Shown here: piece after piece, positions 36,561 through 62,378 of the stretch
Layout: each line of letters opens with the position of its first letter
Position numbering within the stretch: the first letter of the stretch is position 1
Position numbers and translations under genes: made by a program
The notes under the pieces: model-generated
Seen by the model: only the letters and a program-made list of their open reading frames with translations
Database searches by the model: none
Told to the model about the DNA's origin: nothing
NCBI RefSeq assembly: GCF_030490285.1
Contig: NZ_CP129884.1
Location: 806,001 to 870,000, forward strand
Reading direction: 5' to 3'
From: Methylomonas montana
Lineage (GTDB): Bacteria > Pseudomonadota > Gammaproteobacteria > Methylococcales > Methylomonadaceae
Length of the DNA: 64,000 nucleotides

Positions 36561-36636
36561 GGGTCGTTAGCTCAGCCGGTAGAGCACCGCACTTTTAATG
36601 CGATGGTCGTGCGTTCGAATCGCACACGACCCACCA
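36561..36636 (+). tRNA. tRNA-Lys (anticodon TTT)
   Basis: A 76-nt cloverleaf with acceptor GGGTCGT/ACGACCC, anticodon stem CCGCA/TGCG(A) around CTTTTAA, T-arm GTGCG-TTCGAAT-CGCAC and an encoded CCA end. The anticodon TTT reads lysine codons. Its 3' half from 36,589 is the attachment site of the island that follows. Confidence 0.97.
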
Positions 36637-36637
36637 T
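36589..36637 (+). repeat. Left attachment site, inside tRNA-Lys
   Basis: The 49-bp core runs from the anticodon stem of tRNA-Lys through CCA and one extra T. It is identical to 50,862-50,910. Confidence 0.9.
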
Positions 36638-36783: not shown

Positions 36784-37716
36784 TTAAATCACCCTTCTCA
36801 AGATCGACACCGGCTTAAGGTTGACGATCTTTTCAACCGCTTCCAACAACTCTGCCACTCCCGCAGGCGAATAATGTGTCGTTATGTCGCCATTGCTGTG
36901 ATGCAGCAACTTTTTTCGCGTTTCCAAAGGAACTCCTGCAACTCTCAATCGGTGGCCAAACGTATGCTTCAAGTTATGCGGCCCGCGAGTGTACTCGTCA
37001 CAAACCGGCAGCCCTGCTTTTCGCCAAGCTTTCTTCCATGCTGAGTTATGCAGGCGGGTAATGCGTTTACCACGGTATGGGAAAACATAGGGGTTATTCG
37101 CCTGACGGTTTTGCCGTTGTGCTTCGATAATGGCTTTCGCCGTCGAGTTTAAAACTACCAGTTGGTCTTCTTTGTTTTTTTCCCCTGGCCACTCGCCGTC
37201 CCCATATACCTTTTTTCGCCACGGAGTGATAAAGATACTCGTACCGAGTTCCGGCACAACCACTTCCCAGTCCCACCGTAGCCAACACACACCTTGCTCA
37301 CGCAGGCCAGTGTTAGCCGCAAATATGGACATGGTACGCAAATGCCCCGGCAATGCCTTCAGCAAACGCTCCAATTCCTCAAAGTCAAGAGGATAGGGAT
37401 TTGCAGCATCTTCCCAATCGGGCATCTCGAATAACGGCGGACAACTTAAATACGGTTGGCCGTTTTCGTTTCGCCAAGAGCGAGCTGCCAACGTCAACAC
37501 TCGCCGAATGATGGATAAATCACGCTTGACAGTGCTGCTGGATATCCCCGCTTTCCGTCGTTCATTGATGAACCCTTGCAGGGTGCCCATGTGGACATTG
37601 GCTAAGGGTAAATCGCCGATATACGGGGCGACAAATCGCAACGAATCACGGTCACGATCCAGGCTACGCTTCTGCGTTTCCTCGAGGTACCGATCAGTAG
37701 CCTCTCGGAATGTCAT
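36784..37716 (-). CDS. Tyrosine recombinase (integrase), second of an overlapping pair
   Basis: A 310-residue site-specific recombinase lacking the N-terminal arm-binding part. A core-binding domain (about 1-100) leads into the catalytic domain, with the first Arg in NTGLREQGVCWLRWDWE, the HxxK variant GPHNLKHTFGHRLR, and the terminal KKLLHHSNGDITTHYS with the nucleophilic Tyr. Lys replaces the usual second Arg, as in its partner, so this is probably normal for the subfamily. Its ATG overlaps the stop of the upstream paralogue (ATGA). It is adjacent to the tRNA attachment site and is a candidate island integrase. Confidence 0.9.
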   Translation of the reverse strand: MTFREATDRYLEETQKRSLDRDRDSLRFVAPYIGDLPLANVHMGTLQGFINERRKAGISSSTVKRDLSIIRRVLTLAARSWRNENGQPYLSCPPLFEMPDWEDAANPYPLDFEELERLLKALPGHLRTMSIFAANTGLREQGVCWLRWDWEVVVPELGTSIFITPWRKKVYGDGEWPGEKNKEDQLVVLNSTAKAIIEAQRQNRQANNPYVFPYRGKRITRLHNSAWKKAWRKAGLPVCDEYTRGPHNLKHTFGHRLRVAGVPLETRKKLLHHSNGDITTHYSPAGVAELLEAVEKIVNLKPVSILRRVI

Positions 37717-38831
37717 AATGCCTTCGTCTCGGCGATTATGGCTGCCTCGGAATAGACATCGGTCACATCTTCAGATTTATGGTGCAAAAGTTCACGGCGA
37801 AACTCTTTTGGCACATCTTCTGAGATTAACCGCCTACCCAAAGTATGCTTCAAGTTATGCGGTCCACGTGATAGACCATTTTTAACAGGCAACCCTGCAT
37901 TTTTCCAGGCTTTTTGCCAGTCGTACCCCCCCATTTTAGATATCGGCTTACCATCCACTGGAAAAACCCAAGGACACCCCGGTTTACGACGGGCTCGCTG
38001 AATTTCAATGACCTTTTGGGCTACACGATTTAATACCACCAATTGATCCAGATCATTTTTCTCACTAGTTTGAATTCCGCGCTCTTCATCTACAGACTCA
38101 ACGGGAATTTGGAATACGCTGGTTTTTAGGTTTTGGACTTTCCTTTCCCATTCCCAACGTAGTTTACAAACGCTTTGATCTCGCAGCCCTGTATTAACCG
38201 CAAAAAGTGTCATTAACCTAAGATGCCAGGGTAATTGAAGCAATAATTTTCGCTGATCATCCCATTCTAGGGGGTATGGCTTGCTCTTATCCTTCCAATT
38301 TGGCACGCTCAGTAATGGTGGTGCTAAAAGATAAGGTTGCCCAGCTTCATTTCTCCAAGATTGACACGCCAAATTTAAAATGCGTCTTACTACAGCTAGA
38401 TCGCGCTTTACAGTGCCACTTTTGATTCCTCTGGCTTGCTCGTGATCAATAAATGGCTTTAATGTAAGATCATGGACATGGTTCAACGTCAGATTGCCAA
38501 TAAAAGGATCAAGCTTCTCCAAAGTTGTGATATCACGCTCAATGCTATCTTTCTCATCTTGAAAATTCTTAACATAGCGAATACCTGCTTCTTTGAAGGT
38601 AAGCGTAGTGGCCTGACTTTCTTTAATCGTATTCATATGTTGTTCAATAACCTGCGTGAACATCATTTCCGCTTCTTCTTGAGTGCTTGCCTGAAGACGC
38701 TCACGGACCCTTCCGTAACCTTTGATGCGTTTGTCGATGGCCCATTGACCTGTTTTTTTATTGTACTGGAGACCGGCTGGCTTGGTTGGCATGGTGTTGT
38801 TTCCCTTATTTGATGATGATTCGATTGACAT
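37713..38831 (-). CDS. Tyrosine recombinase (integrase), first of an overlapping pair
   Basis: A 372-residue recombinase with an extra N-terminal region (about 1-80, GLQYNKKTGQWAIDKRIKGY) resembling an arm-binding domain. The rest is a paralogue of the following gene: SGTVKRDLAVVRRILNLA against SSTVKRDLSIIRRVLTLA, and GPHNLKHTLGRRL against GPHNLKHTFGHRL. Catalytic Arg is in NTGLRDQSVCKLRWEWE and the Tyr in DVTDVYSEA. The two genes overlap by 4 bp and are probably co-translated. This suggests either a tandem duplication or a two-recombinase integration module. Confidence 0.9.
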   Translation of the reverse strand: MSIESSSNKGNNTMPTKPAGLQYNKKTGQWAIDKRIKGYGRVRERLQASTQEEAEMMFTQVIEQHMNTIKESQATTLTFKEAGIRYVKNFQDEKDSIERDITTLEKLDPFIGNLTLNHVHDLTLKPFIDHEQARGIKSGTVKRDLAVVRRILNLACQSWRNEAGQPYLLAPPLLSVPNWKDKSKPYPLEWDDQRKLLLQLPWHLRLMTLFAVNTGLRDQSVCKLRWEWERKVQNLKTSVFQIPVESVDEERGIQTSEKNDLDQLVVLNRVAQKVIEIQRARRKPGCPWVFPVDGKPISKMGGYDWQKAWKNAGLPVKNGLSRGPHNLKHTLGRRLISEDVPKEFRRELLHHKSEDVTDVYSEAAIIAETKAL

Positions 38832-43559: not shown

Positions 43560-44780
43560 ATGACTTTAAAAAAAATCAGCAATGATCCAAATAAACATAC
43601 GACCACAAAGTCTACTAGCCGCATTCTTAGTGATACTAGCCAAACTGATTCTAATCAATCAAAACTCATTAAAGCCGAAGTTGATCCTTCATCGGCTGAT
43701 TATCGCGAAATTTACACCAAACTTTTCGGCCCAACACCTGCCGAGTCAATGGCAACGGATAGCCACGCCTACCTCGACACTGAAGATTCGCCAGAACCCA
43801 CAGTTAAAACCATTACTCTTTTCGATCACGATCTAGCCAAAGAGCTATCTGAGCGGATTTCAATTGGGCGGGAAGAAAAAAAGTTTTACAGCTCTCTTCG
43901 ACCTGAACATTCGCAAAAACCCATTATTGAGCCGAGCGACGCGGTATTTGAACGCATTCAGCAACTCTTTTTTGATTACCCTAATGCGATTGATTTATTG
44001 AAATACGTTCACGATTTTTTATGCTTACGTAACATTTCAAGAAATAAAGCGATCTACATGAGTCCGATCCTGATTGCTGGCGATCCGGGTATCGGTAAAA
44101 CAGCAGTGATCAGAGCTATCTGTAAAGCGCTTGGCGTAGACTATGGCTTTTATGATTTTAGTTCCGCTAGCAGCAGCTGGGGTCTATGCGGTCAGGACAG
44201 CGGCTGGAATGGCAGCCATATTGGGATTGTGCTAAAGAAGTTACTTTATGGGGCTTGTGCAAATCCGATTGTGCACTTAGACGAGCTGGATAAAGGCATG
44301 GTAAACCATAATTTGGACCCTTACTTAGCGCTACATACCCTGCTTGAGCGACCGCAGATGATTGGGTACCAAGATGCCTACGCACAAAATTTGCCAGTTA
44401 ATGCGTCACATGTCATGTTTTTGGCCACAGCAAATGATATATCAGCCATTCCAAGGCCGATTCAGTCTCGCTTCCGTATTCTGGAAATTTCAACGCCATC
44501 ACCCTCGCAAATGCGGCGAATCGTGGCAAATATGTATTCGAGCAAGTTACATGAAGAAGGGGTCGAAGGCGTATTCGCAATTCAGTTAGCTGAAAGAGTG
44601 ATTGATTTTTTAGTACACAAAACTCCGCGTGAAGTCGGACTGATATTGTCGCGAGCCATTGCAGCAGCCTCTGGTCGAAAGCCCGTCCCTGGCGGCCAAT
44701 ACGAAATTCAATTACAAGACTTATCTGATTGTCTGCCGCAAGAAATATCGCAGCAGCGTAAGGTGGGATTTGTATGGTGA
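43560..44780 (+). CDS. AAA+ ATPase
   Basis: A 406-residue AAA+ protein. The first 120 residues are low-complexity and charged. The ATPase domain (about 150-330) has Walker A in LIAGDPGIGKTAVIRAI, Walker B in VHLDELDKG, sensor 1 in FLATANDISAI and the arginine finger in QSRFRILEI. A helical lid follows with TPREVGLILSRAIAAA (sensor 2). The pattern is closest to Lon/ClpX-like ATPases, but there is no protease domain. Its stop is followed directly by broken defence genes, so it may be the surviving part of a larger defence or processing system. Confidence 0.82.
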   Translation: MTLKKISNDPNKHTTTKSTSRILSDTSQTDSNQSKLIKAEVDPSSADYREIYTKLFGPTPAESMATDSHAYLDTEDSPEPTVKTITLFDHDLAKELSERISIGREEKKFYSSLRPEHSQKPIIEPSDAVFERIQQLFFDYPNAIDLLKYVHDFLCLRNISRNKAIYMSPILIAGDPGIGKTAVIRAICKALGVDYGFYDFSSASSSWGLCGQDSGWNGSHIGIVLKKLLYGACANPIVHLDELDKGMVNHNLDPYLALHTLLERPQMIGYQDAYAQNLPVNASHVMFLATANDISAIPRPIQSRFRILEISTPSPSQMRRIVANMYSSKLHEEGVEGVFAIQLAERVIDFLVHKTPREVGLILSRAIAAASGRKPVPGGQYEIQLQDLSDCLPQEISQQRKVGFVW

Positions 44781-44844
44781 ATGCGGACAAAAATCGACAT
44801 GATTCTATCAATACACATGTCGAGGCAAGTTCATCGGACTGTGC

Positions 44845-45170
44845 CGGTGCAAAAATGATAATAGGTTTACGGCGGCGCTTTTCTTTTTCTATCAATAAAC
44901 ACAACGCCAAGGCTGCAGTTGCCATGGACAAGGTTTTCCCTAAACCCACTTCATCCGCTAATAACAAGCGCACATAACCATAATCGCGATAATGCTTTAA
45001 GCATTCCGTGACAAAGCCCTGCTGCCAGGGTTGTAACGACAAACCTTCACGATAGAGCGGTGATTCGATTAATGCAGCCGGGGTAATGTTTTCATCATCC
45101 GAAACATCATCCAGCAAAATCTCATGACGGCGGCTACGACGACGGACTTCCTTACAAACGGCTTCGGGTA
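44845..45170 (-). pseudogene. Fragment of a superfamily 2 helicase
   Basis: The minus-strand frame reads LSLQPWQQGFVTECLKHYR, then LLLADEVGLGKTLSMATAAL and KPIIIFAPA. This is the Q-motif, Walker A and Ia region of a SNF2/DrmD-like helicase. Homology stops after motif Ia near 44,845, where the AAA+ gene begins, so about 800 residues or more are missing. At its other end the frame stays open into the CD-NTase remnant, with a junction near 45,165-45,175. Two truncated genes have been joined tail to tail by deletion. Confidence 0.6.
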
Positions 45171-45620
45171 GGAACCGAAATTCGCCCGTACAAAGACTGT
45201 AAAGATGCCGACTATGACATTGATATCGTCTGCCGCCTTGAACACAAAAAGGACAACATTGCGGCCCAGATTGTGAAGCATCAGGTGGGGGGGCATCTGA
45301 TGGCTCATGGCACTTACAAAAAAATGCTAGATGTTGAAGGTAGGCGATGTTGGACTCTGAATTACGCCGAAGAGGATGGCGTTGGCTTTCACATGGATAT
45401 TCTTCCCTCGGTTCAGGAGAGCTGGAAAACTTTCAAAGAGTATTACAACTTTTCTAATGCAATTGCTGTGACAAACAAATGTTGCCACACCGGAATCTAC
45501 GATTGGTTGCCAAGCAATCCCAAAGACTTCGCAAAATGGTTTTACAGCAAAAACAAAACTGTCTTTGATCGTGTAAAACCGACTCAAAAGCAGGCTCTTT
45601 TCGAGAATTATTCTTTATAA
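45123..45620 (+). pseudogene. Truncated CBASS CD-NTase (cyclic oligonucleotide synthase)
   Basis: The frame reads VGTEIRPYKDCKDADYDIDI followed by VCRLE, with the two catalytic Asp of the nucleotidyltransferase fold. RRCWTLNYAEEDGVGFHMDI follows, with the third Asp and LPSVQE. This matches bacterial CD-NTases of anti-phage CBASS systems. The N-terminal helix and the GS motif before VGT are lost, replaced by sequence shared with the helicase fragment. The frame stops at 45,620, well before the helical C-terminal domain would end. It is therefore a dead gene. Confidence 0.72.
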
Positions 45621-46662
45621 GTCTCCGGTAACTCAAGAGCGGGTTAATATTTCGGAGAAAGCGCATATATATTCGTTTTCTGAAAATGGACCGCGTGGTT
45701 GGGGGCCATTCAAAAAGAATACGCAAGACCTCAATAATGTCGAAAATCTGACGTTGATGTGCCACGACTGCCATAAAACAATCGATCAGGATCAAGAAGG
45801 ACTTAAGTATTCCGCTTCGTTGCTTCAGAAATGGAAAAAGGAACATGAGCATCGTATTGTTACAGTAACTGGTATTGCTGCCAACATGAAGTCTCATGTG
45901 GTCTTTTATGGAAGTAACATTGGAGAACAACGATCACCCTTACAGCAGGAAGATGCCATGGCGGCCATGTTTCCAGAACGATACCCTGTATCTGAAAATC
46001 CCGTATGCCTTTCCATGTCATGTTCTCATGAAGATAAGAGTGCGGCTTTCTGGGGAACAGAATCAGCGCATTTGAAACGGGTATTTGAACAAAAAGTAAT
46101 GCCCTTAATAGAAAGTGATGCTACAAAGCATTTCTCCCTGTTTTGTTTGGCACCCATTCCACTTCTTATTCAAATGGGCTCGCTATTTACGGACAAAATA
46201 GCCGTTGATACGTACCAACCAATCAGAGAGCCAAAAGGATGGCACTGGCAAGAGTTTCCAGAAGGTTTTGAATTTTTAATTAATAAGCCGAAAGAAATAA
46301 ACGGTACTCCTGCTCTTGTTATTTCGCTAAGCGACTTTATCAGTCATGAACGAATTAAAAGTGTTGTAGGTGACAATGTTTCGATATGGGAGCTGACTGT
46401 TCCAAGAGAACACATTGGCAATGACAACATACGTTCAAAAGCTCAACTTTCGATGATGCGAGCAATTGTGCGAAAGTTAATGATTCAAATTAAAGAAGCA
46501 CATGGAGAAACAACCCCACTTTCTATTTTTCCCGCAATATCAGTGTCTTACTCAATTGAAATGGGGCGAGCACGAATGCCAAAAGCAGATATGCCGTGGA
46601 TAATTTACGATCAGAACAATAAATCAAAAAAATTTATCCCGGCGATAATTGTAGGGGAATAA
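45577..46662 (+). pseudogene. N-terminally truncated HNH-SAVED effector (Cap5-like)
   Basis: The open frame carries KSPVTQERVNISEKAHIYSF then SENGPRG and LMCHDCHKTID, the central and last parts of an HNH nuclease. A SAVED domain follows (about 45,900-46,660), with SVVGDNVSIWELTVPREH and a C-terminal ISVSYSIEMGRARMPKADMP. Cap5 effectors cut DNA when SAVED binds the cyclic nucleotide made by the CD-NTase. The first zinc-binding cysteines of the HNH are missing and no start codon precedes the domain; the first ATG (45,754) lies inside it. It follows the broken CD-NTase directly, as in intact CBASS operons. Confidence 0.72.
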
Positions 46663-47674: not shown

Positions 47675-47974
47675 TTAACAGATTTTGTCTGACAGTGGTC
47701 CTGTGCAGACTTGGTTAGGAGTAATTTTCATGATTTCTGGGTTGCCATTTATAATGGCCCGAATATCATCATCTGAAATATCGATGGGTCTGCGAGGAAT
47801 AACTAAGTGAACTATTGATTCGGTATCTTCGACTACCTTTACAATCACCCCCTCACCCAAAGATATGCCAAGTTGTTTTAGTGTAGTTTGTCCATCTCGA
47901 ATCAAACTCTCACGAAAGTTCGGGTCGCTCCACGCTCTTGCGACTATTGCAGAATAGTTCATTTCTTGCGACAT
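47675..47974 (-). CDS. Lanthipeptide precursor with NHLP-type leader
   Basis: A 99-residue precursor. Residues about 5-65 resemble the nitrile-hydratase-alpha-like leader (NHLP): IVARAWSDPNFRESLIRDGQ, LGISLGEGVIVKVVEDTES and VHLVIPRRP. DISDDDIRAIING then resembles the end of such leaders, suggesting cleavage after Gly77. The remaining 22 residues would be the core, with Thr85, Thr91 and Ser95 for dehydration and Cys90 and Cys99 for up to two thioether rings. AGGAG lies seven bases before the ATG. The gene is head-to-head with lanM, its presumed modifying enzyme. Confidence 0.82.
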   Translation of the reverse strand: MSQEMNYSAIVARAWSDPNFRESLIRDGQTTLKQLGISLGEGVIVKVVEDTESIVHLVIPRRPIDISDDDIRAIINGNPEIMKITPNQVCTGPLSDKIC

Positions 47975-48000
47975 TTTGTCTCCTAATCAACTCAGTTAAA

Positions 48001-50565
48001 ATGTTATTTATGATCTGCTACGATTTACTACTTGTCAAGGCTCAACTTTGGCTTGACAGAGTTGGGGGAGATACCTTGACTACACAGGCGAAAACCAGCG
48101 CCTTGCAACAACTCGACGAAATGCTTACTGATCTAAAACGTATAGCCCATGAGGAAATAAGGGAGTTGCGTTGGCGTGGGTTTGGATTTGATGCCGCCCT
48201 AGTGCAAGGAGCGCAACGATCCGTCCATCCGTCCAACATGGCGGACGCAGCGATAAACCATCGAATGATCAATATTTTTCGAAAATGGAAGCACCGCTAT
48301 AAACTTATGTTGGAAGACTGGTGTCAGGCACATGATTCTAAAATTCTACAGTATAAATTTGGTCGTATCACAGAAATATTTACTCATTCCGAGGAAACAC
48401 ACGATGGTGGTGCCGCAGTGATAATTTTTGCTGTAGAAAATGGAATGAAGTTAATTTATAAACCAAAGTCAGCCGATACAGATGAGTTTATTGAATGGTT
48501 TTGTTCTGAACTTAGAAAACATCAGATTCATACTCCATTATATATTCCATTAACTATTCGCCTTAATCACGGTTGTCTGCAACAATTCATCACCCAAGAC
48601 CCCTTGAATACTAGTGCGGTTGATGCGAAAAGCATTGGCGCTGCAGTCGCCATTTTATATGTACTTCGAGCAACCGATATTCACTCTAAAAATATAATAA
48701 TTTCACAAGGAAAAACATATATTTTAGATACTGAAACAATTTTTTCACAAAAAGGAAATTACCTTGATTATTATTCTCCATTTGATGTTGGTATTTTTCC
48801 TTCACCAACAGCAGTAAAAGAAGGTGAAGTTTTCGATTTTTCCATAATAGAAATAATTACTGCCGGACTACGAAGCCAGCCAACTGAATTATTTTTATCG
48901 ACAGCGATAAAGTTTTTCAGCAAAACTTTGCATGAAATATCTAGTGTAAAACACCATATTATAGACGCTGTCAAGTTCAGGATAAATTGTAATGATATCT
49001 TAATTAGAACGATATTACGTCCGTCTTTTGGATATTTTTATATCATAAAAAAACTCCCTCTGCTATTAAAAATATCAAAAAAATATAGATGCAATATCGC
49101 TAGTCAGATGCTAGTTAATAAGAGCTCAATATTGCCTGAAGTTTTTAAAGAAGAATGCAAATCTCTTGCTGATTACGAAATTCCTGCTTTTCGAGTAAGC
49201 GTAAAATATGGTGCAGTTTATTACCGTGGAATACTAGTGTCTAACAGCCCGTCCCCAATAGATGATTGGATAGATCATATCAAAGAATTAAGCCCAGGAC
49301 GCTGTACATATATTTCGAATTTAATTTTGAAATCTGTTAAATCAATCCCGCTGGATAAGCAATGCTCAGGCAATTTATCACGGAAGCCCGCTCGTTCATA
49401 TTTACAAGCAAAAAACTTAGTTCACTCCATTTATAAAACAATAGAAAAATTTGCATACTTGTCAATTGAATCTGATGAGTTATATGCAGATTTTCCCATT
49501 GAAAAATCAAGATTCCGTTTACTACGGCATAATATTGGTCTGTATAATGGATGGAGTGGATTTGCATTATTTTCAAGACTATATGGCCATGTATTCGACA
49601 AACCTCACTCTATTGACTTGGCCGACAAAATAGTATCGATGTGCGCGAAAACCGCTGTTCAAACTAACTTTATAGACCTCGCTATGGGAATTAGTGGAAT
49701 AGTAATTGCTCAAGAATACCCAAATACATACCATCTTAAGAAAGATATATGCAACCCATTATGGCGGCACATTGATTATCAGGCACTAAGTGATTTGCAA
49801 ATGAATTGTGGACACGACTTCATCAATGGTACTAGTGGAGCTTATTTCGCGGCATACCAGAGCATGGATAATAATTTTGATCATGCGAAAGGTGTTCTCG
49901 ACTTTCAACAGTTTTTTATAGATTCAACGCTAGAAAAACTCGCCTCTTCTCCTCATATGCCCATCGGCGTTGCACATGGCTCTTCGGGATTACTAGTGGG
50001 ACTTGCTGCAGTTTATCGGTTGACACAAAGTTCTGCCCAGAAAACAGCTATTGTAAATGCGATTAATATGACATTAAAACGACAAGATGAATTCTTTGAC
50101 CCCTCTCGTGGATGGCCTGATCTTCGGCATGGTACCAGTCTCGGTTGTAGTGATTATTTAACAAACTGGTGTAGTGGGGTTACCGGGATCGCATGGGCAA
50201 GAGTTTTACTTTTGCGGTATATGGGAGCTGCATTGCTTAATGAGTCGAATGAGTTAATCGAGCGAACAGTGCATTTAGCTGTAAAACTGGTAATGAATTC
50301 GGCTGTTGCTGCGCCATTTGATCTTTGTTGTGGCGAAGCAGGAAAAATTGATTTCCTAATAAATATCGCCCCATATCATACGGGCACAGTAGTTAAGAAA
50401 ACCGCCGCTCTCCGAGCAATTGCTATGGCCGATCAGCTTTTATCAATGGGTAATACATTCAGGGGGGGGGCAAGTAATAACGTTGGCCTATTTAAGGGCC
50501 CATCTGGTATTGGTTACGTTCTTTGTCGTGTTCTATCGTCAGATACCTATCGGGGGTTTATGTAG
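48001..50565 (+). CDS. lanM: Class II lanthipeptide synthetase LanM with CCG cyclase motif
   Basis: Bifunctional enzyme that dehydrates Ser/Thr and closes thioether rings. The DUF4135 dehydratase half has the kinase-like residues: Lys in LIYKPKSADT, Asp/His/Asn in ATDIHSKNII and Asp/Glu in ILDTETIFSQKG. The LanC-like half has HNIGLYNGWSGFALF, GHDFINGTSGAYF and IGVAHGSSGLL, with zinc ligands in NWCSGVTGIAWAR and LCCGEAGK. The usual Cys-His-Gly is Cys-Cys-Gly, as in substrate-tolerant ProcM-type enzymes. At about 854 residues it is short at the N-terminus (typical LanM is near 1,000). I took the ATG at 48,001, outside the precursor gene; the frame is open from 47,938. No transporter gene follows. 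Confidence 0.87.
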   Translation: MLFMICYDLLLVKAQLWLDRVGGDTLTTQAKTSALQQLDEMLTDLKRIAHEEIRELRWRGFGFDAALVQGAQRSVHPSNMADAAINHRMINIFRKWKHRYKLMLEDWCQAHDSKILQYKFGRITEIFTHSEETHDGGAAVIIFAVENGMKLIYKPKSADTDEFIEWFCSELRKHQIHTPLYIPLTIRLNHGCLQQFITQDPLNTSAVDAKSIGAAVAILYVLRATDIHSKNIIISQGKTYILDTETIFSQKGNYLDYYSPFDVGIFPSPTAVKEGEVFDFSIIEIITAGLRSQPTELFLSTAIKFFSKTLHEISSVKHHIIDAVKFRINCNDILIRTILRPSFGYFYIIKKLPLLLKISKKYRCNIASQMLVNKSSILPEVFKEECKSLADYEIPAFRVSVKYGAVYYRGILVSNSPSPIDDWIDHIKELSPGRCTYISNLILKSVKSIPLDKQCSGNLSRKPARSYLQAKNLVHSIYKTIEKFAYLSIESDELYADFPIEKSRFRLLRHNIGLYNGWSGFALFSRLYGHVFDKPHSIDLADKIVSMCAKTAVQTNFIDLAMGISGIVIAQEYPNTYHLKKDICNPLWRHIDYQALSDLQMNCGHDFINGTSGAYFAAYQSMDNNFDHAKGVLDFQQFFIDSTLEKLASSPHMPIGVAHGSSGLLVGLAAVYRLTQSSAQKTAIVNAINMTLKRQDEFFDPSRGWPDLRHGTSLGCSDYLTNWCSGVTGIAWARVLLLRYMGAALLNESNELIERTVHLAVKLVMNSAVAAPFDLCCGEAGKIDFLINIAPYHTGTVVKKTAALRAIAMADQLLSMGNTFRGGASNNVGLFKGPSGIGYVLCRVLSSDTYRGFM

Positions 50566-50861: not shown

Positions 50862-50910
50862 GCACTTTTAATGCGATGGTCGTGCGTTCGAATCGCACAC
50901 GACCCACCAT
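50862..50910 (+). repeat. Right attachment site, partial tRNA-Lys copy
   Basis: A 49-bp exact copy of the tRNA-Lys 3' half (anticodon stem to CCA plus T). The 5' part of the tRNA is absent, so this is the right junction of the island and not a second tRNA gene. Confidence 0.9.
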
Positions 50911-50947
50911 AGAATGTTTTAAGCTAATCAATAGCTTATCAACTGGA

Positions 50948-50964
50948 TTGCCGTCGAGTTGAAG
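50948..50964 (+). repeat. 17-bp inverted repeat, left copy
   Basis: TTGCCGTCGAGTTGAAG occurs here and, inverted, at 54,851-54,867. Both copies lie about 20-35 bp from short GGCGCA repeats. Confidence 0.7.
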
Positions 50965-51031
50965 CAACATAACCGCAGTAAGGCGCAAATTTAGGCGCAC
51001 TCTGCATTATTTGCTCCAATGAGGTGGCGTA

Positions 51032-51424
51032 ATGAACCAGCAAAATCTATCCCTTCAAAGCTCACAAAACGATGTTTTGTCCGAGCAACCTTTTCAAGAA
51101 TCTCAAAACTCGCAAGAAACGCTCACAAATTATCACGTCGAATATTTTTGCGTGTTCGATACCGAGAGTACGTATCACAGCCCGTTATTTGCCACCAAGG
51201 TGCAAAACGATGCTGTCTTACTGCATATCCTCCAAGCCTTCCCTAAAGCCCACGGCGAGTGCCGAAAATCCTATTTCCGATCTGAACAAGATGCTGGCCG
51301 ACAAGAACTATTGTCTGAAATCATGGGTGCCGGCCCGGAATATGACCAGCTGCTTGAACTGCTAAGGCAACGGTTTGCGCCTGATGTCCCCATCCAACTC
51401 AATCAAATCGGCGAGGGCGTGTAA
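51032..51424 (+). CDS. Hypothetical protein preceding the integrase
   Basis: A 130-residue protein, Gln/Ser-rich at the start and acidic and helical at the end (YDQLLELLRQRFAPDVP). No family recognised. Its TAA overlaps the ATG of the integrase gene (TAATG), so the two are translationally coupled, as with small regulators found before some phage integrases. Confidence 0.55.
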   Translation: MNQQNLSLQSSQNDVLSEQPFQESQNSQETLTNYHVEYFCVFDTESTYHSPLFATKVQNDAVLLHILQAFPKAHGECRKSYFRSEQDAGRQELLSEIMGAGPEYDQLLELLRQRFAPDVPIQLNQIGEGV

Positions 51425-52209
51425 TGGCCTACATCCGACCTTTAGCCAACGGCAATTTTCGCGCCGATGTCCGCCTGAAAGGCATAGTCAAAAACAAAAC
51501 CTTCCCAACGGAAAGCCTCGCACAAGCCTGGGCCGATAACATCGAGAACGGCATCAAGACTATTTTGAACCTGGATCAGGCGCAATTAATGGCCCTTTCA
51601 GAGGATGAAATTTGCGCCTTGGGCGGCGATGATCTTTTCAAGCAGTTGGGTATCGATCTGTTTGCAATCCGGCATCAGGCTAAGCTGGAAGCTATCAACG
51701 CGCTTTCCAAAAAGGAGTTGTTACAGCTTTCCGTGCAAGAAATCGAGCGCATGGGCGGCGCTGAGCTATTCATCAAGGCCGGCAAACGCAGCAGCGCCTA
51801 TCTGGGCGACACCAAAAACGGCACCAGTCGGGATCTGTATTTAGCGCCTGTCGTCATGACCGAGCTGAAACGCCATCAGGAAGTCGGCACCGGTTTGATC
51901 TTCCCATCGGTTGAACTTCCCGAGCAACCGATGGATTTTCGCAAGGCGTGGCGAAACGTATTGAAAGCCGCCAATATCGCTGACCGGGACATTCTGAACC
52001 CGGACGGCAGTATCAAACTGGAGAAATTTACCTTCCATTGCCTACGGCATGGCTTCTGCTCGGCGTTGTCCGACTCCGGCAAGGAGATCAATCAAATCGC
52101 CAAACTGGCCGGCCACAAGAGTATTCAAACCACCATGCGCTATATCCATCAGGGACGCGACCAAAAGCGGCAGATCGTCAACGAACTGGCTCAGGCCTTT
52201 AAGCTGTAG
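51424..52209 (+). CDS. Shortened tyrosine recombinase (integrase)
   Basis: A 261-residue protein. The N-terminus resembles phage integrases (MAYIRPLANGNFRADVRLKG). The C-terminal half has TKNGTSRDLYLAPVV, box II in FHCLRHGFCSAL, then KLAGHKSIQTTMRYIHQ with the nucleophilic Tyr. The segment that should hold the core-binding domain and first catalytic Arg is missing: residues 60-120 are alpha-helical with ALSKKELLQLSVQEIERMGG, and the usual TGLRxxE motif is absent. It is probably an internally deleted, inactive integrase that has kept its frame. A terminator follows. Confidence 0.75.
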   Translation: MAYIRPLANGNFRADVRLKGIVKNKTFPTESLAQAWADNIENGIKTILNLDQAQLMALSEDEICALGGDDLFKQLGIDLFAIRHQAKLEAINALSKKELLQLSVQEIERMGGAELFIKAGKRSSAYLGDTKNGTSRDLYLAPVVMTELKRHQEVGTGLIFPSVELPEQPMDFRKAWRNVLKAANIADRDILNPDGSIKLEKFTFHCLRHGFCSALSDSGKEINQIAKLAGHKSIQTTMRYIHQGRDQKRQIVNELAQAFKL

Positions 52210-52218
52210 CAGCTATTC

Positions 52219-52252
52219 GCCGGCCAATCCTTGGTTGGGTTGGCTGGCTTTT
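52219..52252 (+). terminator. Terminator after the integrase gene
   Basis: GCCGGCCAATCC pairs with GGGTTGGCTGGC across a TTGGTT loop and is followed by TTTT. It lies 10 bp after the integrase stop. Confidence 0.75.
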
Positions 52253-52285
52253 CTGTTCATGAATCGAATAGCCGAGTAAATAGGT

Positions 52286-52341
52286 ACTTTACGTTTAGCA
52301 TATTTTGACTTTACAATTATTTTAAAATCACTTTACGTTTA
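52286..52341 (+). promoter_or_regulatory. Operator-like array of ACTTTAC repeats
   Basis: ACTTTACGTTTA occurs exactly at 52,286 and 52,330, with a shorter ACTTTACA at 52,309 between them. The spacing of 21-23 bp is about two helical turns, so all copies face the same side. The array ends six bases before the ATG of an HTH-containing protein, pointing to autoregulation. Confidence 0.6.
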
Positions 52342-52347
52342 TTCACT

Positions 52348-53355
52348 ATGAGTATCGATCTACGTCATTCCATCCTAGTCGCCATCGCCGAAGACGGCAG
52401 CAATGTAGCCGCCCGCCTAGCGAATCAACATGGCGTTTCCCGACAGGCCACCAGCGCTTGGTTGACCAAACTGAAAAAAGAAGGTGCCATTACATCATCC
52501 GGTATAGGCCGGGGTGTGCGTTATCAATTGGCAACAATGGCACAGGTACAACGGGTTTATCCCCGAGCGGGATTGCGTGAGGATCTCGTCTGGTCCGAAT
52601 CCATATCACCATTGCTTAGCGACTTGCCTGGCAATGTCCGTGACATATGGCATTACGCCGTCACCGAGATGATAAACAATGCCATCGACCATTCCGGTTC
52701 CGAAAATGTTGTCGTGGAGTTGGTGCGCGATGCACTCAATACCACCGTTTACATCGCCGACGAAGGTGAAGGTATTTTTCTGAAAATTCAGCGAGCGATG
52801 AATTTGTATGATCCCCGCGAAGCGATCCTGGAATTGGCCAAGGGCAAGCTGACCACCGATCCCGCCAACCATACCGGCGAAGGCATTTTCTTTTCGTCCA
52901 AGGTGATGGACGCCTTCGACATCCGATCCGGTCTATTGCACTTCATGCACGACGAATGGGGCGCGGACATTCTGCTTGAGCGTCCCGCCAATGCGCCGGG
53001 CACCCTGGTTTTGATGCGCCTGGCCAACGATAGTCCACGCATTTTGCAAGACGTGTTCGATCAGTTTGCCGCGCCGGAGGAATATACCTTTGCCAAGACC
53101 ATTGTCCCGGTGCGACTGGCACAGCATGAAGGCGAAAAACTGGTTTCCCGTTCGCAAGCCAAGCGCTTGACCATGCGCTTTGAGCGATTCCAGGTCGTAG
53201 TATTGGATTTTGCCGGCGTCGAGGAAATCGGCCAGGCGTTTGCCGACGAGGTGTTTCGCGTGTTTAGCAACGCCCACCCCAATACCCAGTTACTGCCGAT
53301 CAACTTAACCCCTGCCGTCGAAAACATGGTCAAGCGGGCATTGTCGGCCAAATGA
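52348..53355 (+). CDS. HTH - GHKL ATPase - DUF4325 protein
   Basis: A 335-residue protein of three parts. Residues about 5-65 are a winged helix-turn-helix (QHGVSRQATSAWLTKLKKEG). Residues about 90-225 are a GHKL/HATPase domain with EMINNAIDHSGSENV (N box), YIADEGEGIF (G1) and THTGEGIF-like NHTGEGIFFSSKVMDAF (G2). Residues about 265-335 match DUF4325, a STAS-like domain (VVLDFAGVEEIGQAFADEVFRVF). There is no phospho-acceptor His domain, so it is not an ordinary sensor kinase. It may be an anti-sigma-like or ATP-dependent transcription switch. It overlaps the HigA-like gene by 4 bp. Confidence 0.82.
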   Translation: MSIDLRHSILVAIAEDGSNVAARLANQHGVSRQATSAWLTKLKKEGAITSSGIGRGVRYQLATMAQVQRVYPRAGLREDLVWSESISPLLSDLPGNVRDIWHYAVTEMINNAIDHSGSENVVVELVRDALNTTVYIADEGEGIFLKIQRAMNLYDPREAILELAKGKLTTDPANHTGEGIFFSSKVMDAFDIRSGLLHFMHDEWGADILLERPANAPGTLVLMRLANDSPRILQDVFDQFAAPEEYTFAKTIVPVRLAQHEGEKLVSRSQAKRLTMRFERFQVVVLDFAGVEEIGQAFADEVFRVFSNAHPNTQLLPINLTPAVENMVKRALSAK

Positions 53356-53672
53356 GCATTTCACAGAACACGAATATGACAACGTTCAATCCCCTACACC
53401 CCGGCAGCATTTTGAAAGAGGACGTGTTACCCGATCTGGGTATCGGCGTCACTGAAGCCGCCGCACAGCTTGGCGTTTCCCGCGTCGCATTATCGCGCGT
53501 CGTCAACGGTCGAGCGGCGGTCAGCGCCGATATGGCAATTCGCCTCGAAGCCTGGCTGAACGGCCCGACCGCCGAAACCTGGGGGCGTATGCAAGCCGAA
53601 TACGATTTATGGCAGGCGAGACAAAAGCCCAAGCCCAACGTCTCGCCGATTGAACGGCCGCACGCGGCATAA
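53352..53672 (+). CDS. HigA-like XRE antitoxin/regulator
   Basis: A 106-residue protein with the HigA signature: FNPLHPGSILKEDVLPDLGI, then an HTH in AAAQLGVSRVALSRVVNGRA and EAWLNGPTAETWGRMQAEYD. HigA normally follows the toxin HigB, but here it overlaps the HTH-GHKL-DUF4325 gene (ATGA), and no HigB is present. It may regulate or neutralise that protein instead of a HigB toxin. Confidence 0.85.
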   Translation: MSISQNTNMTTFNPLHPGSILKEDVLPDLGIGVTEAAAQLGVSRVALSRVVNGRAAVSADMAIRLEAWLNGPTAETWGRMQAEYDLWQARQKPKPNVSPIERPHAA

Positions 53673-53781
53673 CGAATATCCGAATTAGCCAGCCTTACCC
53701 GACGGGGGACAGGCGGAGTCATTAACCGCCTGGCTGGTTATCCAATTTTAATGATTTGCACTTGAATGGAGTGGAATAGTT

Positions 53782-54390
53782 ATGAGTATACGAATACCCA
53801 AAGGCGAAGATATTGCAGAATTGCTACTATTGTGTGCTCCACAAAGTATTTTAAATGATCTGGAGTTAACAGCGGAAACTAGAAGTGATTTTGTTGACAG
53901 ATTCGATATGAGCTTTGAGCCAAATTGCATTGTAAATAGATACAAAACCGATTTAATAGCGTTAGCATTATATTACAGTAATATAAATATAACCAATCAC
54001 AAAAAATATTCAGATTATGTGATGATTGAGGTATTGGATACTTTTTACATAGCTCCGGAAGTTATTTATAGTTTAATTCAACTAACAAAAAGTGAAGAGT
54101 TTTATGAGGTTAATAAATTAAAGGACGAAATTGATGCTGGTGGTCTACGCAAAAGGGATGAAATAATTAAACTAGCACAAGAAAAACTTAAACCTTACAA
54201 AAAAGGACCAGAAGTAAAGTCCTTAAACACCAAACAAAAATACGTCGCCGTCAAAGAAGAATTGCAAAATTATCTGCAAGAAAATCCAGGAGCGCCTATT
54301 GAAGAGGCGCGCCGTATAGCTGCAAAAAGAGCCGGATTTAAAAAGATTCCAACAGACAAAACTCTACGAGATAATCTTAAAGATAAATAA
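53782..54390 (+). CDS. Hypothetical AT-rich protein
   Basis: A 202-residue protein, much more AT-rich than its neighbours, so probably a separate acquisition. The first 120 residues are helical and acidic. Residues about 135-202 are basic (KEELQNYLQENPGAPIEEAR, KRAGFKKIPTDKTLRDNL) and resemble a DNA-binding or HTH tail. No family recognised. Repeats that look like an operator lie just after it. Confidence 0.6.
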   Translation: MSIRIPKGEDIAELLLLCAPQSILNDLELTAETRSDFVDRFDMSFEPNCIVNRYKTDLIALALYYSNINITNHKKYSDYVMIEVLDTFYIAPEVIYSLIQLTKSEEFYEVNKLKDEIDAGGLRKRDEIIKLAQEKLKPYKKGPEVKSLNTKQKYVAVKEELQNYLQENPGAPIEEARRIAAKRAGFKKIPTDKTLRDNLKDK

Positions 54391-54396
54391 TCAATA

Positions 54397-54429
54397 CGGT
54401 AAAATTGCATTTTTACCGGTAAAATTGCA
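54397..54429 (+). promoter_or_regulatory. Paired repeats with dyad symmetry
   Basis: CGGTAAAATTGCA occurs at 54,397 and 54,417, exactly 20 bp apart, with an inverted TTTTACC between them (GGTAAAA/TTTTACC). This looks like a repressor operator for the gene at 54,508 or a small iteron-type site. Confidence 0.5.
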
Positions 54430-54507
54430 ATTTGTTAGATGAATTAATCCATTTCAATCAATACCATAGCTTCACACATCCAAACCAGCTCAACGGAGAA
54501 TGAAGAA

Positions 54508-54759
54508 ATGGCAATCGCAGCAAATAAAACGTCAGACCATATATCGGCGGCGCAAATCACTATAACGCTCGACGATATTATCCCCTCGGGCGATGTCCCC
54601 AAAAAATACCCGCACCTTTATAGCGAAAAATCCTGGAAGTGGGCCGTTGTTCAGCGCAAGCATAATGGATTAGCCAAAGCATTTCGCAAGATCGGAAAAC
54701 AGCTTTTTGTAAATACCAAAGTGCTGGCCGAATGCATCGATTCTCAATCTGATACCTGA
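54508..54759 (+). CDS. Small hypothetical protein, possible DNA-binding
   Basis: An 83-residue protein with a region (HLYSEKSWKWAVVQRKHNGL then AKAFRKIGKQLFVN) that looks like the basic helix-wing part of small phage or excisionase-type DNA-binding proteins. It follows the paired repeats at 54,397 and comes just before the right copy of the 17-bp inverted repeat. The assignment is tentative. Confidence 0.5.
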   Translation: MAIAANKTSDHISAAQITITLDDIIPSGDVPKKYPHLYSEKSWKWAVVQRKHNGLAKAFRKIGKQLFVNTKVLAECIDSQSDT

Positions 54760-54850
54760 ACCGCATATTAAATGCGTTGCAATGCCTTGTGTTTTAAGGC
54801 TTGCAAATAAATAGGCGCACAACTAGGCGCAATTTCCAGGTATTTAAAGA

Positions 54851-54867
54851 CTTCAACTCGACGGCAA
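54851..54867 (-). repeat. 17-bp inverted repeat, right copy
   Basis: CTTCAACTCGACGGCAA is the reverse complement of 50,948-50,964. GGCGCAC/GGCGCAA repeats lie nearby on the left, as they do on the right of the other copy. Confidence 0.7.
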
Positions 54868-54948
54868 ATCGGAAGACATACCCGGAACTGCACCCAACAT
54901 GCGATAAATATTTATCCACCTTTATGGTGGAAAGATTGGGGATATATT

Positions 54949-55131
54949 GTGACAGACATGAAAAACATTAGATCATTTTTACGCAAGAACGGTCTGTTAG
55001 AAATGCGTGATGGTCAGTTTATCTCGGTGTCAATTATAGGCCGAATAATTCCAGATGAAGAGAAACGGATTGCGGTGGTTAAGGACAAACACGGTAACCG
55101 GGTAGGAATATTGGACTGGAATAAGGAATAA
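54949..55131 (+). CDS. Small hypothetical protein
   Basis: A 60-residue protein (MTDMKNIRSFLRKNGLLEMR onward) with mixed charge and a C-terminal KHGNRVGILDWNKE. It comes directly before the broken phage replication genes on the same strand, so it may be a phage early gene. No family recognised. Confidence 0.45.
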   Translation: MTDMKNIRSFLRKNGLLEMRDGQFISVSIIGRIIPDEEKRIAVVKDKHGNRVGILDWNKE

Positions 55132-55136
55132 GTAAG

Positions 55137-55253
55137 GTGAGTAACAAGCACATTAATATGGCTTATCACATGCCACTCGATGCAATGGAGAAACTCGTTC
55201 TTATCGTGCTTTGCGATCATGCGAACGATAGTGGGTTTTGCTTTGTGGGTTAA
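55137..55253 (+). pseudogene. N-terminal stub of a phage replication protein
   Basis: A GTG-started frame of 38 codons (KHINMAYHMPLDAMEKLVLI, VLCDHANDSGFCFVG) matches the first helices of phage replication initiators with an N-terminal winged helix, in which this start is followed by a recognition helix. It stops at 55,251 after losing the rest of the gene. The junction runs straight into the DnaB-like fragment. Confidence 0.55.
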
Positions 55254-55254
55254 C

Positions 55255-55764
55255 CGAGTAGCGCACCTCAATTTCCGCATATTCGACAAGCCCGCCGTCA
55301 CGATAGCCGACGTGGCGTTACAGGCCAAGGCGTGGGCCATTGATGGCGGCTTGGATTTTATCGTCGTGGACTATTTGACCCGCGTAAAGCCGGTCAAAAG
55401 CAGCGGCAACCAAACGCTCGACGTTGGCGAGGTTGCCACTGGCCTGAAAAACATCGCCCGTCAAATCAACATACCCGTCATGGCCCTGGCTCAGCTCAAT
55501 CGGGCAAGCACCAAGCGCACCGACAAGCGGCCTAACATGGCCGATTTGCGGGATTCAGGCGTTATTGAGCAAGAGGCCGATCAAATCCTGCTCTTACACC
55601 GTGACGACGAAGACGACAACGCACCGGCGGAAGTGATCGTCGACAAGAACCGCCATGGGGAGGTGGCAATCCGGATTCGGAAAGTTCGCCGCTCCGCCTG
55701 TCTGGGCGGCGTTACTCTTATTACACCAAATCGCCATTGCATCAAAACAGGAAAAATTTCATGA
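55255..55764 (+). pseudogene. C-terminal fragment of a DnaB-like replicative helicase
   Basis: The frame encodes the last third of a DnaB-type helicase: GGLDFIVVDYLTRVKPV (Walker B), LKNIARQINIPVMALAQLNR, NMADLRDSGVIEQEADQILL and a final AEVIVDKNRHGEVAIRI. The N-terminal domain and Walker A are absent. A deletion near 55,250 seems to have joined the replication-protein stub to this fragment, removing both gene bodies. The prophage therefore lacks its own replication module. Confidence 0.7.
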
Positions 55765-56309
55765 AAACCAAAACCATCACGAAAACTGATTTCTTGGAGG
55801 CGGCTCACGCCAAGCAAACCATTCTGCCGGCCATACGCGAGCTAAAGAGAATAGGAAACCGTGAGATCTCCAACAACAGCTACACCGCCAAGGTAATTGG
55901 TAGAGCCGTTAGTTGTTTAGAGGCCCACATCAAAGATGCTGACCGAGTTTTTAAAAAAGCTGCTGATGATTTTGAGGCGGCCGGGGGAAATGAACTGCTT
56001 AAACGAGTGGCCGGTCGCACGTTGGCAATTCCGGGGGAAATCACCCTGCACGAGCGCACCGCTGAGCTTTTGCGCCAAGCACATGATTACCGCCTTAAGG
56101 AGTTGAAAAATTCCGGCTTTAGCGAGAAACAGATAGCAACTATCGAGCCCTTTCCAGCAGAAGAATTGGCCGGCCATGCAGAAGCCATCGAAGCACTGGA
56201 AATCGAGCAGAGCAAACTAAATCAATTCCTTGAAAGCGCACCGGCCCACGAGCTGACCTACCTTTCAGGTACCTCTTTTGAGGCCTGCTTGCAAATGGAG
56301 GCTGCGTAA
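55761..56309 (+). CDS. Hypothetical phage protein
   Basis: A 182-residue protein starting at MKTKTITKTDFLEAAHAKQT; the open frame extends 8 codons upstream into the helicase fragment. It is helical and charged, with no known motif. Its stop overlaps the next start, and the following genes are packed the same way, as in a phage transcription unit. Confidence 0.6.
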   Translation: MKTKTITKTDFLEAAHAKQTILPAIRELKRIGNREISNNSYTAKVIGRAVSCLEAHIKDADRVFKKAADDFEAAGGNELLKRVAGRTLAIPGEITLHERTAELLRQAHDYRLKELKNSGFSEKQIATIEPFPAEELAGHAEAIEALEIEQSKLNQFLESAPAHELTYLSGTSFEACLQMEAA

Positions 56310-56821
56310 TGAAAGAAACCTCAGAACAACTAGTGTCGCGGCTTGATGATGCGATTTCTGGCCTTAAGCGGCTTAGCCCCGCGTCTTTGCAGTTCGATTC
56401 CGAGATGTATGAGCACTTTTTTAAGGGAATGCTCCTGCTGCAAGCCTTCAAGGCTGAGTTTGAAGGGACCTCCACCGAGCCGAACAGCCCGCTGATTGAT
56501 ACGGATTTGCGGATACAAGTCGCCGCAGCAATCGCTCGCCTTGAGAGCGAAATCGATGGAACTTTTTCCCAAGCTGACGAAGCCACCGCCGAACACGCTC
56601 GCCAAGTCAAAGAATGTATAGAGCTTGGGATGACCGAAGATCAAGCGTTAGAACATTGCTCAGTTGAAATCTTAGATTCCGTGGTTGATGAACTTTACAC
56701 ACGGGCTGAGTCGATGATGACCGAGCGAAACAGCTTAATCGCTTTCATCCAAGATCAATCGGGCGATGTTCGGCTTTTGGCTGGCACTCGGTGCCATCAA
56801 CCAGAGCCAGTTTCCCACTAA
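56309..56821 (+). CDS. Hypothetical phage protein
   Basis: A 170-residue acidic, helical protein (KETSEQLVSRLDDAISGLKR onward) coupled to the preceding gene through a TAATG overlap. No recognised family, signal peptide or membrane helix. Confidence 0.58.
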   Translation: MKETSEQLVSRLDDAISGLKRLSPASLQFDSEMYEHFFKGMLLLQAFKAEFEGTSTEPNSPLIDTDLRIQVAAAIARLESEIDGTFSQADEATAEHARQVKECIELGMTEDQALEHCSVEILDSVVDELYTRAESMMTERNSLIAFIQDQSGDVRLLAGTRCHQPEPVSH

Positions 56822-56846
56822 CCAAATTTTACAGGAACACGCACCA

Positions 56847-57368
56847 ATGAACATAAAAACGGTCGATGGAAACAAGCTGATTGAGGTAAAAAATCGCTTG
56901 AAAGCTCTACAGGTAATTGTCAGAGATACCCAGCACAAAATAAGCTGCGAACAGGCTGCACACGCTGATAGGCTTAATTCGGCAATGAAAAACCGAATGT
57001 CGCCGGCTGAGTTTTTGGCATTATTTCCCAATCCGCCCGTGAGCGGGGCTAATCTGACAGCCTACACCGCCGTCAAAAATGGTACTGACACGCTTTCACC
57101 GGCTATTGACGATCCTTTGGTTGCCGAAGATTTCCTAAAACTCGACCAACACTACGCCGAGCGGGCAAAACCGAGCCGGTCGCTGACCGAGTCGGAGTTC
57201 TTGCAGTTGTATCCGGCGCCTACTTTCACCGCCGAAAATGCTGCCATTGCTGCGGCGCAGGTTGAGTGTGACAAACTCGCCGCCTTCCTTAGGTCCGGAC
57301 CAGCAAATCAATACCCCGCTCCTTTCGATGTCGATTTTCTGTCGACAACCGCTGTAAGTTACCCGTAG
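56847..57368 (+). CDS. Hypothetical phage protein
   Basis: A 173-residue protein starting at MNIKTVDGNKLIEVKNRLKA, preceded by an ACAGGAA ribosome-binding site. The longer open frame starts inside the previous gene. It contains two related segments, MSPAEFLALFPNPPVSGANL and LTESEFLQLYPAPTFTAENA, about 60 residues apart, each followed by a helical part. It has an internal duplication of unknown role and comes directly before the virion protein gene. Confidence 0.62.
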   Translation: MNIKTVDGNKLIEVKNRLKALQVIVRDTQHKISCEQAAHADRLNSAMKNRMSPAEFLALFPNPPVSGANLTAYTAVKNGTDTLSPAIDDPLVAEDFLKLDQHYAERAKPSRSLTESEFLQLYPAPTFTAENAAIAAAQVECDKLAAFLRSGPANQYPAPFDVDFLSTTAVSYP

Positions 57369-57377
57369 ACGGCAATC

Positions 57378-59543: not shown

Positions 59544-59550
59544 AGCGGGC

Positions 59551-59565
59551 TCACCCTCAGGGTGA
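59551..59565. promoter_or_regulatory. Perfect 7-bp inverted repeat before an XRE gene
   Basis: TCACCCTCAGGGTGA has two 7-bp arms around one base, 35 bp before the start of the XRE regulator gene. It could be its operator or a small hairpin ending the previous transcript. Confidence 0.4.
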
Positions 59566-59599
59566 ACGGTAAAAATTCTCAACCACCTAAAGGCCAAAA

Positions 59600-60331: not shown

Positions 60332-60351
60332 CCCCAAAAACAGGAATACAA

Positions 60352-61116: not shown

Positions 61117-61188
61117 ATCACGGTTTGAAGGTTGAAGCGACAATCGGCGTATGTTACAAATCAGCCAGGTCATTTGGAGGCTGAAAAC

Positions 61189-61632: not shown

Positions 61633-61673
61633 AGTTTAGTTTTACCCACCGGCAAATTAACTAATCAAAATTC

Positions 61674-62350: not shown

Positions 62351-62378
62351 TTTCTTCAGTCCCTAAAGGGTAACCCCC

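Follow-up and report, generated by a model that had tools for sequence, protein, structure and literature searches.

The pairing of long, nitrile hydratase-like leader peptides (NHLP) with class II lanthipeptide synthetases (LanM) is already known, and a proteusin cyclodehydratase cluster from a methanotroph has reportedly been published too. NHLP precursors encoded beside LanM were reported in 2010 (Haft, PMC2887384), and the NHLP-leader lanthipeptide families II 2, 13, 17, 25 and 29 in 2020 (PMC7268733). The genes considered here lie in a stretch of 64,000 nucleotides of the Methylomonas montana genome (contig NZ_CP129884.1, positions 806,001 to 870,000 of the forward strand), which is referred to below as the window. 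They encode a 99-residue NHLP (proteusin-type) precursor of a ribosomally synthesized and post-translationally modified peptide (RiPP) and a compact LanM-like enzyme of 829 residues (Table 1). Together they probably make up a minimal class II lanthipeptide system, of the NHLP and LanM kind already described, that a tRNA-Lys island carries as cargo.

As in the pairs already described, a long leader resembling nitrile hydratase adjoins a synthetase with DUF4135 and LanC domains, and the core contains Ser/Thr and Cys. In the pairs of the 2010 report, the leaders end with Gly-Gly and the cores are said to be short and to vary greatly (PMC2887384), whereas in the window Gly-Asn (GN) stands at that place, a core pattern is kept in three of three family members and no transporter is linked. 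Families II 2, 13 and 17 are likewise characterized by conserved leaders and non-conserved cores (PMC7268733), unlike the core common to all three members of the window family. The phaeornamide cluster (phaA/phaM), which has been characterised, also combines an NHLP-family precursor with a class II synthetase in a proteobacterium and has a methyllanthionine (MeLan) ring, but its description includes an arginase, a hydroxylase, an acyltransferase and transporters (PMC9505594), whereas two genes are recognised at the window locus. ProcM-like synthetases are described with the same Cys-Cys-Gly (CCG) zinc motif (PMC10783134); they differ in having many Nif11 precursors, where the host genome of the window has a single NHLP one. 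No paper naming both Methylomonas and lanthipeptide, and none on the family of precursors with the core motif VCTGP, was found in the literature searched, which included few subscription journals. What is new here is a core-sharing NHLP family, a compact and deviant LanM and the island setting, the type of pair being known.

The precursor scores 56.5 bits against TIGR03793 (cut-off 50.9) and 44.2 bits against PF02979 (cut-off 27.2), and its two relatives P0006 and P0007, described below, score 76.0 and 52.3 bits against TIGR03793. In this regard, the original prediction, which had placed both genes and assigned an NHLP leader, was accurate. In the predicted precursor model, based on 41 sequences, the predicted local distance difference test score (pLDDT) is 86-95 in the ten-residue blocks from residue 11 to 60 and low for residues 81-99. 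Its top match in the Protein Data Bank (PDB), obtained with Foldseek, is the solved proteusin precursor 8tb1 (probability 0.99, E 0.059, query TM-score (TMq) 0.46), and nitrile hydratase alpha chains come next. A sequence-profile search with the precursor also reaches 8tb1, at E 2.1e-18. The leader fold of 8tb1 matches the predicted leader of the window precursor, but the solved chain joins that leader to a tumour-homing test core, according to its molecule name, and has no lanthipeptide core. An L(X)4L-type leader motif has been described for proteusins (PMC11791876, PMC10858898), and I66-x4-I71, read by eye, is its hydrophobic counterpart in the window precursor. The ATG has GGAG 5 nt upstream. 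A sigma-70-like promoter candidate is only suggestive and weak alone, because about as many sites are expected by chance (12.5) as the scan gave (12).

The synthetase matches LANC_like (PF05147) with 121.9 bits (cut-off 23.2) and DUF4135 (PF13575) with 99.8 bits (cut-off 29). The lack of a DUF4135 match, which the original prediction had named as a refutation, was therefore not observed. At the guanine-plus-cytosine (GC) content of 38.6%, a frame of 829 codons would stay open by chance with a probability of about 5e-25. Its start is most likely TTG 48076, favoured because GGAG lies 5 nt upstream, whereas ATG 48001 is without such a site; the database protein P0001 begins at the same TTG. A structure model of the enzyme built on a four-row alignment has a low mean pLDDT (33) and was set aside.

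The residues of the enzyme were read from an alignment of 15 LanMs, a chosen set rather than a sample, in which some start codons are the first Met. It comprises the window enzyme, P0002, P0003, six near-full-length class enzymes and six from named plasmids (Halocatena, Halobiforma, Nostoc, Trichormus, Priestia and Azospirillum); the search of the class had matched 21 of 369 genomes, 8 of them over the cut-off, and partial and weak rows were excluded. P0002 and P0003, which are CCG enzymes of 1108-1110 residues, are taken by us to be ProcM-like and serve, with the Nif11-linked Nostoc enzyme, as stand-ins for ProcM. According to the residue roles described for CylM (PMC4550811), and in CylM numbering, the kinase residues K274, D347, H349, N352 and D364 are kept, the invariant K129 of the window LanM being taken as K274, and so are the elimination residues H254 and R506. 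In the cyclase domain, the active-site acid His634 and the zinc ligands Cys699, Cys751 and Cys752 are all present, so that the Cys-Cys-Gly site seen originally stands and Cys699 is added as its third Cys ligand.

The zinc motif is CCG in nine of the 15 enzymes (the window included) and CHG in five, and the Azospirillum enzyme has lost the site. The original prediction had read a ProcM-like substrate tolerance from this motif. That view is rejected as unsupported, because CCG occurs in most of the enzymes compared and the genome has a single precursor; identity is also as low as 18% to P0002 and P0003 and 19.5% to the Nif11-linked Nostoc enzyme, with which the window LanM does not group in a poorly resolved tree, on a long branch. 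No comparator is more than 22% identical to the window enzyme, whose branch is the longest (3.83) in that tree; the tree does not place it. A search of 5.8 billion proteins returned the enzyme itself and three weak matches (25-27% over 13% of the query); scoring in it was limited to the 7994 candidates with the most words in common, so that distant relatives may be missed. A genome contig scan yielded 7 stretches and no relative. Of the 56 plasmid records matched by tblastn, a single one spans 80% or more of the query, and it is 20.7% identical. The window LanM is a compact, deviant enzyme for which no close relative was found in the protein, contig and plasmid searches.

The host genome, a single contig of 4.63 Mb, contains one LanC-like domain and one NHLP leader, 101 bp apart. 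The pairing had been proposed from adjacency; it is firmer than adjacency alone would make it, because the only two such genes are neighbours. Among 61 genomes (the host's own and 60 relatives), TIGR03793 matched three and its own alone over the cut-off, and among 201 genomes of the family PF05147 matched two, namely its own and a weak one (18.7 bits, 28.9 with neighbours). The search of the genome for more NHLP precursors that had been suggested originally brought none to light, nor any Nif11 precursor; the single Nif11 protein encoded there is short and lacks a core. The host is very likely a methanotroph, as had been supposed, given the one genome match of PF02461 (the AMO/pMMO subunit family) at E 3.6e-127. 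The class genomes G452 and G604 likewise have NHLP-like precursors next to CCG LanMs. In the first (L094:6289-11513), an NHLP-like precursor with a GG motif (PF02979) is accompanied by a P450-type frame (PF00067) and by a CCG LanM inside the open frame 7284-11513.

The two genes are divergent and share no operon, and NHLP leaders are reported to serve several modification systems (PMC2887384). At another locus (L008:5526-13692), fourteen NHLP precursors with GG-type leaders and differing cores, in contrast to the common core of the window family, stand beside a YcaO enzyme, and there is no LanM match. The window precursor could, on this evidence, be modified by another system while the LanM is unrelated cargo, but the short distance between the genome's one NHLP leader and its one LanC domain makes such an arrangement highly improbable.

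With regard to the core, a protein search with the window precursor found one relative besides itself, P0006, and a search with the alignment of these two returned 56 proteins, with P0007 among them. Both relatives are metagenomic precursors of unknown host, from assembly contigs of 4,088 bp (P0006) and 24,772 bp (P0007), and they align with the window precursor over its full length at 54% (P0006) and 46% (P0007) identity. All three share the C-terminal pattern M(K/R)(I/V)TPxxVCTGPx(S/T)xxIC, and GN77-78, M82, T85, P86, V89-C90-T91-G92-P93, Ser/Thr95 and I98-C99 are kept in them. Thr85, Cys90, Thr91, Ser95 and Cys99 of the window precursor lie where the original prediction had put them; the 22-residue boundary that it had drawn is unproven, since the leader has no double-Gly motif and no cleavage motif supports it. 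As the pattern is kept in three of three precursors, the core looks conserved rather than hypervariable, and its presence in two other precursors argues for one dedicated product.

As a control, the 56 proteins were aligned, and 45 were usable after 11 with a core of fewer than 12 residues or with too little leader overlap had been dropped. These give 990 pairs, not mutually independent, 802 of which are outside the family and have a leader identity of 30-56%; their core identity has a mean of 20%, a 95th percentile of 48% and a maximum of 68%. The window precursor and P0007 have 71% core identity with 40% leader identity, and none of the 802 control pairs matches this value.

Searches for further members of the family were negative. 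Among the loci fetched, which are part of the matches, no other core-motif member was found (alignment A1 matched 26 of 369 class genomes and alignment A2 59 of 398 phylum genomes), and a genome contig scan with A1 gave 7 loci with leader matches only, without the core motif. Plasmid searches returned 2 records with the window precursor and 62 with P0007, two of the latter covering at least 80%; nitrile hydratase genes make up most of the matches listed, and the Tistrella plasmid precursors examined have no such core. In viral contigs, scans with the precursor, A1, A2 and the LanM alignment found no relative, and a DNA scan for the core motif gave 31 stretches, none with the final IC at the family spacing within the 25 residues read past the motif. 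Phage records gave one weak local match. The CTxTxEC-type motif is known to bind Lipid II; read by eye, it is absent from the core.

In the mechanism that we infer, which extends to pairing, activity, ring pattern, cleavage and export, the folded nitrile hydratase-like leader of the precursor would dock on the LanM, and the DUF4135 domain would phosphorylate and eliminate at Thr85, Thr91 and Ser95. The zinc cyclase (Cys699, Cys751, Cys752) would join Cys90 to residue 85 and Cys99 to residue 95, residue 91 would remain dehydrobutyrine, and an unlinked protease would remove the leader. The product would most likely be a two-ring peptide with the candidate rings Thr85-Cys90 and Ser95-Cys99 and up to three waters lost, a prediction that applies established class II chemistry to this anatomy. 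The one- or two-ring product proposed originally would fit the conserved Cys90 and Cys99.

Several observations weigh against a working pair of this kind. On the side of the precursor, E 0.001 was reached by none of the 47 structural-search matches of its model, and the usual Gly-Gly cleavage motif, which is typical and not strictly defining, is absent at the end of the leader. GN at residues 77-78 replaces it in all three family members; C39 proteases are described as using GG, GA or GS (PMC10885120), and a Lys/Arg at residue 83, common to the family, is another possible cleavage site. Furthermore, the other two family pairs have a core identity of 52%, a value matched by 19 of the 802 controls (the ten listed at 52% or more are Cys/Gly-rich cores), and the core (residues 77-99) is significantly above the leader in conservation in only one of the three family pairs (Fisher 0.003; 0.44 and 0.11 in the other two, and 0.057 for the three rows together).

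On the side of the enzyme, the DUF4135 match covers only positions 30-176 of the 378 of the model, and the score against the NCBIfam LanM model TIGR03897 (223.3 bits) is below its cut-off of 304, a naming threshold that lies outside the Pfam-based class II definition as given in PMC7268733. From the start at 48076, 109 residues precede the P-loop His, against 147-296 in the 14 comparators (the farthest start, 47938, would give 155), and the LPS(V/I)L-type ending of several comparators is missing. D252 is replaced by Glu, in this enzyme alone among the 15, and T512 by Ser, as in three of the 15. The enolate-stabilising residue is Ser in the window LanM and in no other; the remaining 14 have His (9), Tyr (2), Asn (2) or Arg (1). 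This residue, His277 of LanCL1, is described as His, Lys or Asn in known LanMs and as Tyr in NisC (PMC9934072). Finally, nothing recognisable as a transporter, protease or immunity gene is linked to the pair; a single C39 peptidase-transporter was found, about 1.86 Mb from it, and its 492 bits fall short of the NHLP-exporter cut-off of 853.

These substitutions bear on an outcome in which the enzyme dehydrates or only phosphorylates the core and closes rings poorly, so that the product would be a dehydroamino-acid or phosphorylated peptide. Besides the Ser at the enolate-stabilising position, which is neither His, Tyr, Lys nor Asn, D252E and T512S belong to the elimination set, and PoyF and EmbM are LanM relatives described as dehydrating or phosphorylating without a cyclase domain (PMC9505594). 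The LanM that lies near eight NHLP precursors on the plasmid of Azospirillum sp. B510 (L133) is a further case, as WDRG and VLHG replace WCxG and C(C/H)G there and its sequence suggests dehydration without ring closure. However, the window enzyme keeps all three zinc ligands and the acid His, T512S is also found in 2 of the other 14 LanMs, and both core Cys are present in three of three precursors, which suits ring formation. This outcome is considered very unlikely.

The element that carries the pair is a tRNA-targeted integrative island, with integrases beside the tRNA-Lys and direct repeats of the 3' end of the tRNA on both flanks, so that the island of the original prediction is now delimited by 49-nt repeats. 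It measures 14.3 kb, and the lanthipeptide pair is its last recognised cargo. The GC content is 31-45% between 38 and 51 kb of the window and 48-58% in the preceding 38 kb. The genome has three copies of a 44-nt part of the attachment (att) repeat; the third lies beyond the window (genome position 882976), so that there seem to be two tandem elements. The second, at the same tRNA-Lys (50911-64000 and beyond), has an integrase at 51424-52209 and an int-alpA RNA at 53687-53753.

G027, a genome of the same genus, also contains the integrase pair of the window island (L150:14267-17095), 81% and 72% identical at the nucleotide level and adjoining an att copy whose 44 nt are identical. About 54 kb around these integrases (L150-L152) contain one att copy and no tRNA, and tblastn found no LanM or precursor there. 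The integration module thus occurs without the lanthipeptide pair, which fits an exchangeable cargo, the G027 element itself not being delimited. Restriction-modification-type genes of G027 (PF01555, PF04851) were considered as cargo of that element and rejected, as they lie on the other side of the att copy.

The frames of defence type on the window island are incomplete, as the model positions in Table 1 show for the CD-NTase-like, HNH-SAVED effector-like and PLD-helicase-type frames, and the pair could likewise be a decaying relic on an eroding island. On this account, the LanM has lost its N- and C-terminal parts, its active site has drifted and nothing is made. The longest branch of the tree, the altered D252, T512 and enolate residue, the missing comparator-type ending and the lack of a linked exporter or protease would all agree with it. 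Against decay, the 829 codons are open with a gradient of GC by codon position (47, 38 and 31%), every zinc ligand and every kinase residue tested is kept, and the precursor frame is also open, with a core that matches two other precursors. Compactness in itself is not peculiar to the window enzyme: the LanMs of G459 (L092:7763-10453) and G343 (L056) have 895-896 residues and a D364-R506 spacing of 87, similar to the 93 of the window LanM, the spacing being 118-150 in the 12 others. They differ from it by a CHG zinc motif, by an identity of 18% and by the lack of a precursor-profile match in either genome, and the next gene downstream of the G459 enzyme encodes a major-facilitator transporter (PF07690). 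Decay is therefore considered unlikely, although it is the alternative to which most weight is given, and a minimal lanthipeptide pair carried by the island is the preferred reading.

Table 1. Features of the lanthipeptide pair and of the tRNA-Lys island in the window
Feature	Position	Strand	Basis
NHLP (proteusin-type) RiPP precursor, 99 aa	47675..47974	-	TIGR03793 and PF02979 over cut-off, predicted leader fold
Conserved C-terminal block, residues 77-99 (GNPEIMKITPNQVCTGPLSDKIC)	47678..47746	-	common to P0006 and P0007; putative ring pattern
Sigma-70-like promoter candidate for the precursor, TTGACA-17-GATCAT	48010..48038	-	motif scan
Compact LanM-like class II lanthipeptide synthetase, 829 aa, TTG start	48076..50565	+	domain matches; frame open upstream as far as 47938
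DUF4135 dehydratase match: EETH P-loop, YKPK, DxHxxN, DTET	48337..48750	+	99.8 bits
LANC_like cyclase domain	49534..50547	+	121.9 bits
First zinc ligand Cys699 (WCSG)	50170..50172	+	alignment
Second and third zinc ligands Cys751-Cys752 (CCG)	50326..50331	+	alignment
tRNA-Lys (TTT), integration target	36561..36636	+	ARAGORN; Rfam RF00005 70.4 bits
Left 49-nt direct repeat (att, tRNA-Lys 3' part)	36589..36637	+	100% identical pair
Right 49-nt att repeat, island end	50862..50910	+	100% identical pair
Tyrosine integrase, first of pair	36784..37716	-	PF00589 52 bits
Tyrosine integrase, second of pair	37713..38831	-	PF00589 42.7 bits; 77% identical relative in same-genus G027
PLD-helicase-type antiphage protein fragment, model positions 201-283 of 905	44413-45117	-	
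Remnant like a cyclic-oligonucleotide-based antiphage signalling system (CBASS): CD-NTase-like frame (94-199 of 388 model positions), then HNH-SAVED effector-like frame (78-375 of 378)	45273-46662		

Outside the island, an IS1595-type transposase gene (35545-36492, +) lies just before the tRNA-Lys. Further away, a c-di-GMP-I riboswitch (32548-32631, -; 53.4 bits) lies just upstream of the gene of a secreted-looking protein (31376-32521, -), and the C-terminus of the neighbour at 30501-31271 appears by eye to be similar to that of this protein.

As island cargo, the peptide would most likely serve in competition or signalling. A wider interpretation is that the three VCTGP precursors form a fixed-core family of proteusin-lanthipeptides, opposite to the hypervariable core usual for NHLP, that the compact LanM represents a lineage with an EETH P-loop and a WCSG cyclase chemistry of its own, that both are spread by mobile islands of defence type, and that the peptide acts in the way of life of the island (competition or phage defence) and not in a secreted library. 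Taken as a whole, this interpretation is regarded as quite doubtful.

If active, the pair would be a two-gene lanthipeptide maker whose enzyme is shorter than the 14 LanMs compared and has three changed active-site residues, and it would put to the test which residues are needed for LanM chemistry and how far the kinase-activation (KA) and capping regions can be reduced. The island setting adds an example to the link reported between class II lanthipeptide genes and defence genes co-located on mobile DNA (PMC12715929). In addition, an NHLP core that did not vary would lend itself well to a study of the function of this kind of peptide.

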